DNA from: Effusibacillus pohliae DSM 22757
Lineage (GTDB): Bacteria > Bacillota > Bacilli > Tumebacillales > Effusibacillaceae
Assembly: GCF_000376225.1 (NCBI RefSeq)
Contig: NZ_AQXL01000132.1
Location: 1 to 64,000 of the forward strand
Length of the DNA stretch: 64,000 nucleotides
Direction: 5' to 3'
A program made the translations under genes and the position numbers. Below the pieces are notes generated by a model. It was given only the letters and a program-made list of their open reading frames with translations, was not told the origin of the DNA and ran no database searches. Shown one piece after another: positions 19,689 to 55,591 of this stretch (its first letter is position 1; every line of letters begins with the position of its first letter).

Positions 19689-20585
19689 TTATTCGCTGGG
19701 AGAATCAAAAATCCGCTTTTTCATCGCCTGTCCCGTCGGGGTCATGGCCAGCCCACCGAGAGCGGTTTCCCGCAGCGAAACCGGCATTCGCTTGCCGATT
19801 TCGTACATGGCGGCGATCACCTCATCGCAGGGAATCCGGCTTTCCACACCGGCCAGCGCCATGTCGGCCGCCGCGAAGGCGATCGCCGTGCCGATCACAT
19901 TCCGTTTGATGCACGGCACCTCCACCAAACCTGCCACCGGATCGCAGACAAGACCCAACAGGGATTTCAGCGCGATGGCTGTTGCATTGACCGCCTGCTC
20001 GGGCGTTCCGCCCTTCAATTCCACAATGGCACCGGCCGCCATCGCGGTGGCCGACCCCACTTCCGCTTGACAGCCGCCGGCCGCTCCTGAAATAAAAGCG
20101 CGGTTGGCGATCACATAACCGAGAGCGCTTGCGGTGAACAATCCCATCACCAACTGGTCGTACGAGAGCCCGCAATTCTCTTGCAGTGAAAACAGGCAGC
20201 CGGGCAAAACTCCGGCGGCGCCCGCCGTCGGAGTCGCCACGATCACTCCCATCCGGGCGTTCGTCTCCGATGTGGCAAACGAGAACCGCATCGCATCGAC
20301 GATGATGTTGCCGGAGAGAAAATCCCCTTTTTCCTTGTAAACGCCCATCCGATACGCGTCCCCGCCGGAAATGCCGCTTGGCGAGGAGGACCGGTCGGAC
20401 ACGCCTGTTTCAATCGCCTGTTTCATCTTGAGCAGACGTTCCTTCATCATGCTGATGATCGTATCCCGGGTGCGGCCCGACTTGCTGATTTCAACATCGA
20501 GCATGACTTCTGCGATGCTCTTGTTTTCCCGTTCGCAGTGAAGCAGCAGTTCCTGCATCGATTGGAAATCGATCGGCATTTTCAT
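19689..20585 (-). CDS. sdaAA: L-serine ammonia-lyase, iron-sulfur-dependent, alpha subunit
   Basis: 298 residues of the SDH_alpha family. With the beta subunit it converts L-serine to pyruvate and ammonia. Three cysteines expected to hold the oxygen-labile [4Fe-4S] cluster are visible in SGAAGGCQAEVGSATAMAA (about 172-190), LVCDPVAG and EVPCIKRN. Other family signatures are IVATPTAGAAGVLPGCLFSL (about 113-132) and ARMGVI. Its ATG (20583-20585) directly follows the sdaAB stop TAG, so the two are translationally coupled. The pair sits between murA and spoIID, an insertion relative to B. subtilis, and is under the glycine riboswitch at 21186-21399. Confidence 0.93.
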   Translation of the reverse strand: MKMPIDFQSMQELLLHCERENKSIAEVMLDVEISKSGRTRDTIISMMKERLLKMKQAIETGVSDRSSSPSGISGGDAYRMGVYKEKGDFLSGNIIVDAMRFSFATSETNARMGVIVATPTAGAAGVLPGCLFSLQENCGLSYDQLVMGLFTASALGYVIANRAFISGAAGGCQAEVGSATAMAAGAIVELKGGTPEQAVNATAIALKSLLGLVCDPVAGLVEVPCIKRNVIGTAIAFAAADMALAGVESRIPCDEVIAAMYEIGKRMPVSLRETALGGLAMTPTGQAMKKRIFDSPSE

Positions 20586-21092
20586 CTACCTCACCTGAAA
20601 ATTGATGACACGGGTCCGATTTTCCTTGTGCAGCACCATGGAACACGCGGTATTCAATGGAATATCAACCTGAAACTGATCGATCAAGAAAATTTTTGAT
20701 AATCCGCCGCCCAACGAAACGCCGCCGACCATCACGGCGTCACCATTCTTTTCCGCATGGATGAGCAGCGTATTCGGATGGTCATAATAGGGGCACTCCT
20801 CCTCCAGCTTGAAAACGGTCGCCATCCCGCATTCAGAGGCAAGTTTGAGCGCGTGTTTGATTCGCAGATCATCCGTGCCCATTCCCAACAGTCCGCCGAC
20901 GATTGCTTTATCCGTGCCATGTCCCCTGTATGTTTGAGAAAAAGAGCCATAAAATGTGATTTCCGCCCGCTCCGGGATCCCGTGCAGGAGCTGGTGCACA
21001 AAATTCCCGATCGTCACCACGCCGGCCGTGTGCGAACTGGACGGACCGACCATGACCGGCCCGATAATGTCAAAACAGCTGTTGTACTCCAT
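20586..21092 (-). CDS. sdaAB: L-serine ammonia-lyase, iron-sulfur-dependent, beta subunit lacking a complete ACT domain
   Basis: 168 residues from ATG 21090-21092, preceded by GGAGGAGAG; longer in-frame extensions run through the riboswitch and are discarded. The SDH_beta core is intact: FDIIGPVMVGPSSSHTAGVV (8-27), FYGSFSQTYRGHGTDKAIVGG (about 51-71) and VGGVSLGGGLSKIF. Family members such as B. subtilis SdaAB are about 220 residues with a C-terminal ACT domain. Here the protein stops after MVLHKENRTRVINFQVR, about 20 residues into that region, where sdaAA begins. The enzyme core should be unaffected; any regulation through the ACT domain is probably lost. Confidence 0.9.
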   Translation of the reverse strand: MEYNSCFDIIGPVMVGPSSSHTAGVVTIGNFVHQLLHGIPERAEITFYGSFSQTYRGHGTDKAIVGGLLGMGTDDLRIKHALKLASECGMATVFKLEEECPYYDHPNTLLIHAEKNGDAVMVGGVSLGGGLSKIFLIDQFQVDIPLNTACSMVLHKENRTRVINFQVR

Positions 21093-21122
21093 CGCTCTCT
21101 CCTCCGGAACGACATGATTTTT

Positions 21123-21177
21123 AAAAAGAAAGGAAGGACAGAGAGGGGTAGACCGCTTTCCCCTTCTCCGTCCTTCC
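21123..21177 (-). terminator. Second leader terminator upstream of sdaAB
   Basis: On the minus strand, GGAAGGACGGAGAAGGGG (21160-21177) pairs with CCCCTCTCTGTCCTTCC (21132-21148) with few mismatches, followed by TTTCTTTTT. It lies about 30 bases before the sdaAB ATG and resembles the first leader terminator in sequence. Confidence 0.8.
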
Positions 21178-21185
21178 GTTCGATC

Positions 21186-21233
21186 AAAAAAGGACAAAGC
21201 AAGGGCAGACTGTCTACCCTCGCTCTGTCCTTT
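21186..21233 (-). terminator. Riboswitch-controlled terminator upstream of sdaAB
   Basis: On the minus strand, AAAGGACAGAGCGAGGG pairs with CCCTTGCTTTGTCCTTT around TAGACAGTCTG, followed by a T run. Its 5' arm contains the CAGAG that closes the P1 stem of the second glycine aptamer, so aptamer folding and terminator folding exclude each other. Glycine binding is therefore expected to prevent termination and turn the operon on. Confidence 0.85.
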
Positions 21234-21399
21234 TACCGGAAAGTTTAACTCCCGTTCGCGGGAGTTTTCCCCTTTGGTGGCTGATGCTCTCTCCAGAGTG
21301 CGTCCGATTGCAGTCCTTTTACCTGAGAGATTGGTCCCAAGGATTTTTGGGACTTGCCCCTTCGGTGCCGAACGGCCGGTTCGGTCTCTCCCGCAATCG
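21221..21399 (-). promoter_or_regulatory. Tandem glycine riboswitch controlling sdaAB-sdaAA
   Basis: Two aptamers in series on the minus strand. Aptamer 1 (about 21305-21399) is closed by CGATTGC and GCAATCG and contains GGGAGAGACC, CACCGAAGGGGCAAG and TCTCTCAGGTAAAAGGAC. Aptamer 2 (about 21221-21302) contains CTCTGGAGAG, CACCAAAGGGGAAAA, a GC-rich variable hairpin, and CCGGTAAAAGGACAGAG. These are the hallmark conserved blocks of the glycine riboswitch (gcvT motif). A terminator overlapping the 3' end of aptamer 2 forms the expression platform. Control of serine dehydratase by glycine makes sense because glycine and serine are interconverted by GlyA. Confidence 0.93.
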
Positions 21400-21437
21400 T
21401 CATCCGCCGCTATGCAGTTTCGTAACGTGTTACTTCT

Positions 21438-21443
21438 ATTATA
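21438..21443 (-). promoter_or_regulatory. -10 box of the sda operon promoter
   Basis: A perfect TATAAT on the minus strand lies about 40 bases upstream of the first glycine aptamer and just after the murA stop. The -35 region is weak. Confidence 0.6.
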
Positions 21444-21466: not shown

Positions 21467-22729
21467 TTACTCGACGCGCACAATGTCCGCTCCGATCGTA
21501 CGGAGCTTGTCTTCCAGTTTCAAGTAACCGCGGTCTATGTGGTGGAGTCCGTTGACTTCCGTTTCCCCCTGCGCTCCCAGTCCGGCGATCACAAGCGCGG
21601 CCCCCGCCCGCAGGTCGCTTGCCGTAACGCTCGCTCCGGTCAGGTAGGGGACCCCGGTGATCAGCGCGGTGCGTCCCTCAATCTTGATGTCGGCTCCCAT
21701 TCGCTGCAGTTCCGCCACATGCATGAACCGATTTTCAAATACGCTTTCCGTCACCAGGCTGTTGCCGGGCAAAACGGTCAGCAGCGCCATCATCTGCGCC
21801 TGCATGTCAGTCGGGAATCCGGGATACGGCAGCGTCTTGACATCCAACGGACGGTTGCCGGGACCGCCGATCGCCCGTATCCCGTTCACATCTTCCTCGA
21901 TCTGGATGCCCGCTTCTTTCAGTTTGGCGATCACCGGCTTCAAATGGTTGGAAATCGCTCCTTCCACATACACGTCGCCGCCGGTCATCGCCGACGCGAT
22001 CAGGAACGTGCCCGCCTGAATCCGGTCGGGGATCACGGTGTGATTCGCGCCCCGCAGCGATTCGACGCCATCGATGCGGATCACATCCGTACCCGCCCCG
22101 CGCACACTGGCGCCCATCGCGTTCAAATAGTTCGCCAGATCGACGATCTCCGGTTCCTTCGCCGCGTTTTCGATAATCGTCCTGCCTTCCGCCAGAGCGG
22201 CTGCCATCATGATGTTCTGCGTGGCACCGACGCTTTGGATATCCAGATAAATTCGGGTTCCTTTTAACCGATTCCCTTTCACGCGAGCTTCCACGTGGCC
22301 GCGGCCGACTTCGACTTCCGCACCGAGCGCCTGAAATCCTTTGATATGTTGGTCAACCGGTCTTGCTCCGATCGCACAACCGCCCGGCAACGCGACACGG
22401 GCACGGCCCATGCGGGCTAACAAAGGTCCCATCACAAGAAAAGAAGCCCGCATTCTGCGAACCAGCGATTCTTTGGCGATCCATTCCTTCACGTTGCGCG
22501 AGTCGACATGCAAGACCGTTTCGCTTTCCCGACGAACTTCTGCCCCTAAAGCGATGATGACTTCACTGATGGTTTCAACATCCGTCAACCATGGAACGTC
22601 CTCGATCACACTGGTTCCTTCCGATGCAAGAATCGATGCCGCCAGAATCGGCAACACCGCATTTTTTGCACCGTCCACTTTTACGCTGCCAGACAGGCGG
22701 TTTCCGCCACGAATCAAAAACTTTGACAA
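21467..22729 (-). CDS. murA: UDP-N-acetylglucosamine 1-carboxyvinyltransferase MurA
   Basis: 420 residues, the usual MurA length. It transfers enolpyruvate from PEP to UDP-GlcNAc, the first committed step of peptidoglycan synthesis in the cytoplasm. Start is TTG 22727-22729 after GCGGAGG. The catalytic loop [15 protein letters not shown] carries Cys118, so the enzyme should be fosfomycin-sensitive in principle. GAKNAVLPI (20-28) and [17 protein letters not shown] are other family blocks. It follows the ywmB-like gene by 46 bases on the same strand, as in B. subtilis murAA. Confidence 0.96.
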
Positions 22730-54340: not shown

Positions 54341-55591
54341 TCAAGCTTTCTGCAATCCCTCGTACAGCGGGAACTTCTCGCACAGGGCACGGACACGGCG
54401 CATCGCTTCGTTGAGGCTCGGCTGGTCGTTGCCGTTGCGCAAGGAGAGGTTGATAATGTCCGCCACCTCGACCATTGCGTCCCGGTCGAAACCGCGGGTT
54501 GTCACAGCCGGCGTGCCGATCCGGATGCCGCTCGTCACGAACGGGCTTTGCGGGTCGAACGGAATCGCATTTTTGTTAACCGTGATGCCGACTTCATCCA
54601 ACAGTTTCTCCGCTTCTTTCCCGGTGAGTCCGAGGTTGCGCAGATCGATCAGGATCAGATGGTTGTCCGTGCCGCCGGATACCAGGTTAAAGCCGCGGTC
54701 GATCAGCGCTTGCGCCAACGCTTGCGCATTGTCGATCACCGCCTGCGAATACTGGGCGAATTCCGGGCGAAGCACTTCGCCGAAAGCGACCGCTTTCGCC
54801 GCGATCACATGCATCAAAGGACCGCCCTGAATCCCCGGGAAAATCGCCTTGTCGATCTCCTTCGCATACTTCTCCTTGCAAAGGATCAGGCCGCCCCGTG
54901 GTCCGCGCAGCGTCTTGTGCGTCGTCGATGTGACAAAATCGGCGAACGGAACCGGACTCGGGTGGTGGCCCGTGGCGATCAGTCCCGCAATGTGAGCCAT
55001 GTCGACCATCAGGTAGGCTCCGACCGAATCGGCAATCTCCCGCAGTTTCGCAAAATCGATCACGCGCGGATAGGCGGAAGCGCCCGCCACGATCATTTTC
55101 GGTTTGTGCTCTTCCGCCAGCCGGCGGACCACATCGTAGTCGATCCGGTGTGTGACCTCATCCACCCCGTAGGGCACAAAATTGTAGTACTGCCCGGAAA
55201 TGTTCACCGGACTGCCGTGCGTCAGGTGGCCACCGTGCGCCAGATTCATCCCCAGCACCGTGTCGCCAGGCTTCAGAAACGCAAAATACACCGCGGTGTT
55301 CGCCTGTGCTCCCGAATGCGGCTGCACGTTGGCGTGTTCCGCACCAAATATTTTCTTCACGCGCTCGCGGGCCAGATTTTCCACAATGTCCACATATTCG
55401 CAACCGCCGTAATACCGCTTGCCCGGATAGCCTTCCGCATACTTGTTGGTCAGCACCGTCCCCATCGCTTCCATGACGGCGCGGCTCACGAAGTTTTCGG
55501 ACGCGATCAGTTCGATTTTCGACTGCTGGCGGCCGAGTTCCTTGTCAATCGCCTCCGCGACCTCTTTATCCACCAACCGCAGATGATTCAT
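54341..55591 (-). CDS. glyA: Serine hydroxymethyltransferase
   Basis: 416 residues from ATG 55589-55591 ([16 protein letters not shown]), with GGAGAGG upstream; 27 extra codons precede it in the open frame without support. It interconverts serine and glycine with tetrahydrofolate. The PLP lysine is Lys226 in [40 protein letters not shown] and [11 protein letters not shown] are classic blocks. The gene lies between ywlG and upp as in B. subtilis, but an about 10 kb block separates it from upp here. It links to the glycine-controlled sda operon metabolically. Confidence 0.97.

Follow-up and report, generated by a model that had tools for sequence, protein, structure and literature searches.

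Tandem glycine riboswitch followed by two look-alike terminators upstream of serine dehydratase genes in Effusibacillus pohliae

The window analyzed here is a stretch of 64,000 nucleotides from Effusibacillus pohliae DSM 22757 (contig NZ_AQXL01000132.1, positions 1 to 64,000). Its minus strand carries, in the interval flanked by murA (stop at 21467) and sdaAB (ATG at 21092), a glycine-switch leader which reads in the order two glycine aptamers, terminator T1, terminator T2, sdaAB, and sdaAA. A possible -10 box (TATAAT, 21438..21443, minus strand) can be inferred from the sequence just past the murA stop, and a consensus scan returned no full sigma-70 site at this possible promoter. A Shine-Dalgarno sequence, GGAGGAG, precedes sdaAB (21099..21105, minus strand). 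Family matches identify sdaAB (20586..21092, minus strand; 168 aa) and sdaAA (19689..20585, minus strand; 298 aa) as encoding the beta and alpha subunits, respectively, of an iron-sulphur L-serine dehydratase. SdaAA matched TIGR00718 above its cut-off (342.7 bits) as well as PF03313, and SdaAB matched PF03315 (55.7 bits; cut-off, 26). Over positions 1-160 of the 208 in TIGR00719, SdaAB scored 156.2 bits, just under the curated cut-off of 161.2, a shortfall that stems from the lack of the C-terminal ACT region usually present. Both reading frames are open with good family matches, and the operon looks intact. The ACT region is kept by most SdaAB proteins in these genomes and is absent from those linked to a glycine switch, in the window (20586-21092) as well as in relatives; the ACT-less SdaAB may be a glycine-catabolic paralogue. 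The glyA gene (54359-55582, minus strand) is not part of the operon and lies ∼33 kb away from it.

The initial annotation had placed two glycine aptamers in series in this leader, and the Rfam glycine model RF00504 recovered both above its gathering cut-off of 32 bits. Aptamer 1 (21301..21403, minus strand) scored 71.1 bits (E value of 7.8e-13), and aptamer 2 (21215..21306, minus strand) scored 41.9 bits, a value taken from the genome-scale search, with aptamer 2 being absent from the window-wide report. Alignment with relatives, in which the core of aptamer 2 could be included, revealed a short linker and conserved cores, with a single deviating base in the core of aptamer 2. This base is an unusual C in place of A in the CUCAGG core; around positions 21243-21236 of the window, aptamer 2 reads CUUUCCGG and its relatives read CUCUCAGG. 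None of the other glycine aptamers surveyed carries C at this position, and a few carry U or G. The assignment of the element as a tandem glycine riboswitch of known type, with glycine as its predicted ligand, is thus well supported by the sequence.

Two stable hairpins with U-tracts follow the aptamers, as had been proposed. T1 (21186..21234, minus strand; found by the consensus scan) consists of 5' arm A (21234-21212) and of 3' arm B with its U-tract (21210-21186), with a folding energy of -35.3 kcal/mol. T2 (21123..21181, minus strand; found in the leader survey) consists of 5' arm C (∼21177-21160), 3' arm D (∼21151-21132), and a U-tract (21131-21123), with a folding energy of -33.0 kcal/mol. 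The consensus terminator scanner reports T1 and misses T2, because the T2 loop of 11 nt exceeds the scanner limit of 8 nt. Only ∼5-9 nt separate the U-tract of T1 from the stem of T2; no Rfam aptamer match, and hence no second aptamer set, was found between the two terminators, nor did any other aptamer, or any regulatory RNA motif known from bacteria, reach Rfam thresholds near T2. The sequence sharing described earlier for T1 and T2 is exact to the letter in the common motifs (AGGACAGAG/AGGACGGAG in the 5' arms and TGTCCTT in the 3' arms), and the likeness was reached in only 30 of 5000 structure-preserving shuffles. The suggested pairing of the first 5' arm with the second 3' arm was likewise borne out, with arm A being complementary to arm D at 19 of 21 aligned positions (duplex energy, -28.5 kcal/mol).

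The 3' strand of the aptamer 2 P1 stem (CAGAG, 21223..21227, minus strand), which pairs with the 5' strand CUCUG (21294..21298, minus strand), sits within the T1 5' arm. P1 and terminator overlap in the same manner in the gcvT leader of B. subtilis, a proven on-switch acting via its terminator, where disruption of the terminator stem base leads to constitutive expression (PMC5666159). Since the P1 3' strand is part of the T1 5' arm as in B. subtilis gcvT, T1 is very probably released by glycine, and the on-switch that the initial annotation had predicted from this overlap agrees with both the Rfam match and the gcvT precedent. In the absence of glycine, the lower part of arm A would quit P1 and pair with arm B to form T1; in its presence, P1 of aptamer 2 would keep the A strand, and RNA polymerase would read past T1. 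Polymerase would then encounter T2, which in our favored reading would act as a mostly glycine-independent attenuator, scaling down expression in both states. We infer glycine control at T1 by homology, and we hold with moderate confidence that the leader combines a tandem glycine on-switch at T1 with a largely glycine-independent attenuator, T2, ahead of sdaAB-sdaAA. However, were T2 a strong constitutive terminator, sdaAB-sdaAA expression would be cut greatly even though the operon looks intact, a hint that some form of relief acts on T2.

A second terminator of this kind is uncommon. In a nonexhaustive survey of 134 glycine leaders, mostly the best-scoring ones and from one genome per species, a terminator was detectable in 119, and two separate terminators before the gene were found in 3, namely, the window, the double switch L140 described below, and the weak leader L209; the scan overlooked L133, the other double switch, which came to light on separate inspection. 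A scan at different settings additionally picked up L020 along with a few weak leaders. Among the 134 leaders, one weak candidate aside, no second terminator lacking an intervening aptamer was seen outside the window. We also searched for look-alike double terminators elsewhere with a strict pattern, which matched in 12 of 399 Bacilli genomes, the window being the sole true case. Outside the window, aptamer 2 accounted for all matches when 398 genomes of the phylum were searched at the DNA level.

The genome of E. pohliae contains three glycine-switch loci, the sdaAB leader being one of them. The gcvT locus has a tandem switch with one terminator, and its aptamer 2 is close to that of the sdaAB leader. 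At L001 (C117:30543-30630), a single glycine aptamer stands before a gene with an ACT domain, which is followed by a longer gene that we take to resemble UPF0210; there, terminator and aptamer do not lie next to each other as they usually would. The other three genomes of the genus contain neither an sdaAB locus nor an SdaAB match, and T2 is found in none of the closely related genomes compared. A search with SdaAB led to about 20 Bacilli loci, in Brevibacillus, Siminovitchia, Bacillus, Sinobaca, and others, at which a glycine switch precedes (glyA-)sdaAB-sdaAA with the same ACT-less SdaAB and usually one terminator; the closest SdaAB proteins of relatives are likewise short. Most of these loci have a tandem switch and one terminator before glyA-sdaAB-sdaAA, sometimes followed by gcvH, or before sdaAB directly. 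Two relatives, at L133 (G171, ∼645-1160) and at L140 (G006, ∼600-1240, from the same taxonomic order as E. pohliae), have two tandem switches, both complete, arranged serially ahead of glyA-sdaAB, each locus thus having four aptamers and two terminators.

Two further features were noted at the loci of relatives. In Brevibacillus gelatini (L014, ∼2920-2950), a remnant of a glyA start, ATGAGCTTGCAGGAGCGC, was read by eye between the switch and sdaAB, which suggests that glyA was deleted from this operon. A short purine element (GGAAAGRTAG-like) is seen upstream of the glyA or sdaAB start at L014, L135, L137, L140, L142, L144, and L145; it resembles the T1 5' arm and is complementary to the T1 3' arm, and it might hold the freed terminator arm away from the ribosome site. 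Although striking by eye, the element gained weak support from shuffles (combined P of 0.03 for the sda group versus 0.46 for other glycine leaders; P of 0.009 for the group difference), and we keep it as a lead rather than as a general feature after T1.

The sequence AGGACAGAG is found on the 5' arm of glycine terminators, where the same strand doubles as P1 of aptamer 2. T2 keeps AAGGACGGAG, the P1-strand hallmark of these terminators, without an aptamer partner, and its similarity score with T1 is matched by its scores with several other glycine terminators. P1-strand sequence lacking its aptamer, together with likeness to glycine terminators, argues for descent from a glycine expression platform, and T2 is probably a duplicated or orphaned platform of this kind. 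The idea of a duplicated expression platform, as first proposed, is supported by the resemblance of T2 to glycine terminators as a class and by the two relatives that have two whole switches in series. T2 could have arisen by duplication of the terminator alone or be the remnant of a second complete riboswitch after loss of its aptamers, the latter route being plausible because relatives carry complete double switches.

The initial annotation had further suggested that the leader may act as a two-step gate. In the form considered here, a glycine-bound P1 would keep arm A, the freed lower part of arm B would pair with arm C, and T2 would be blocked, so that both terminators open together; without glycine, A-B and C-D would pair and both would close. 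Such a relay would account for A and C staying alike, and the B-C duplex has an energy of -24.1 kcal/mol (-22.6 for the B..C hairpin). However, the likeness of A and C is also expected from shared descent, and C-D is ∼10 kcal/mol stronger than B-C (-34.3 versus -24.1). We followed the folding of the leader in a greedy co-transcriptional model, in which energies are the standard ones for 37°C and neither tertiary structure nor pausing of the polymerase is taken into account. When P1 was locked, B and C did form a helix of at least 8 pairs in this model once the transcript had reached 131-136 nt, and this helix lasted to 165 nt. Since the upper part of T1 still forms, however, a GGGG/CCCC toehold stays free, and by 169 nt, before the end of the U-tract, D had displaced B through this toehold and the T2 base was in place (six of six rate settings). 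A reference with mutated B formed T2 at 168 nt at the faster folding constant, in agreement with the 169 nt of the P1-locked runs. Unlocked runs formed T1 at 110 nt each time and T2 at 168-181 nt at the faster constant; at the slower constant, neither these runs nor the B-mutated reference ever formed T2, which is a limit of the model.

The two-step gate is thus unsupported by this coarse folding, in which, even with P1 locked, T2 is fully formed ahead of U-tract completion, and because of these runs we no longer regard the relay as the best explanation. We consider it unlikely that glycine blocks T2 in this way, and likewise unlikely that a single glycine event is relayed along P1-A, A-B, B-C, and C-D such that one aptamer pair governs two serial terminators. 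If true, the relay would sharpen the off state without a second sensor. On the basis of the same coarse model, T2 is probably largely without glycine control, as assumed in the favored reading of an attenuator behind a glycine-released T1.

Other roles for T2 appear less probable still. The presence of an intact T2 between T1 and an intact operon would fit a two-input leader in which T2 responds to a different signal, such as a protein, a trans RNA, or temperature; we regard this as improbable, given that nothing in that region reaches Rfam thresholds as a second aptamer or as a known regulatory RNA motif of bacteria and that the T2 sequence is that of a glycine terminator. It is equally hard to credit that the leader is decaying, with the second aptamers lost and T2 left blocking a nearly silent sdaAB. 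Such decay would be consistent with the complete double switches of two relatives, with the unusual C in the CUCAGG core of aptamer 2, and with the missing SdaAB match in the other three genomes of the genus, but sdaAB and sdaAA are both open and match their families well. We discarded the GGAnGA variant class (RF03166), with another ligand, as very improbable: its alignment spans both aptamers, but the score of 96.8 bits lies below the gathering cut-off of 110 and is also exceeded by the canonical glycine scores of the two aptamers taken together, and aptamer 1 has a canonical GGAGAG core.

We conclude that the element is a real tandem glycine riboswitch of known type; its extra terminator is uncommon, and its gene target, though less usual, makes sense. 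The switch should turn on a serine-degrading enzyme under excess glycine. The idea that excess glycine would drain to pyruvate via GlyA and serine dehydratase is sound, and GlyA is indeed co-transcribed in relatives, but this part does not hold in E. pohliae, where glyA (54359-55582) stands apart. With these loci, a Bacilli-wide set of (glyA-)sdaAB-sdaAA operons would join the known targets of glycine riboswitches. The leader in the window also offers a natural case of an expression platform with two homologous terminators and one sensor, which makes it testable whether such a second terminator is under regulation, acts constitutively, or is a relic.

Tandem glycine aptamers with a single expression platform are the classic arrangement. 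A literature search, which covered few subscription journals, returned no paper on the (glyA-)sdaAB leaders of Bacilli, and none on a second terminator that lacks an aptamer. Glycine is among the switches for which multiple expression platforms have been described (PMC9481103). Like B. subtilis gcvT (RF00504), the leader studied here has two aptamers followed by a terminator whose 5' arm contains the 3' strand of the aptamer 2 P1 stem; unlike gcvT, it controls serine dehydratase rather than glycine cleavage, and a second terminator follows. It shares with the serial double switches of L133 and L140 the presence of two glycine-type terminators in one leader, but in contrast to these it lacks aptamers in the T1-T2 interval. 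Glycine switches are reported ahead of gcvT-gcvH-glyA-sdhA in Streptomyces (PMC12452182) and of sdaA in beta-proteobacteria and Mycobacterium, serine genes being described as rare targets (PMC3766115). As in those leaders, glycine sensing is tied to serine breakdown in E. pohliae, whereas the Bacilli enzyme differs in being the two-subunit, ACT-less SdaAB-SdaAA.
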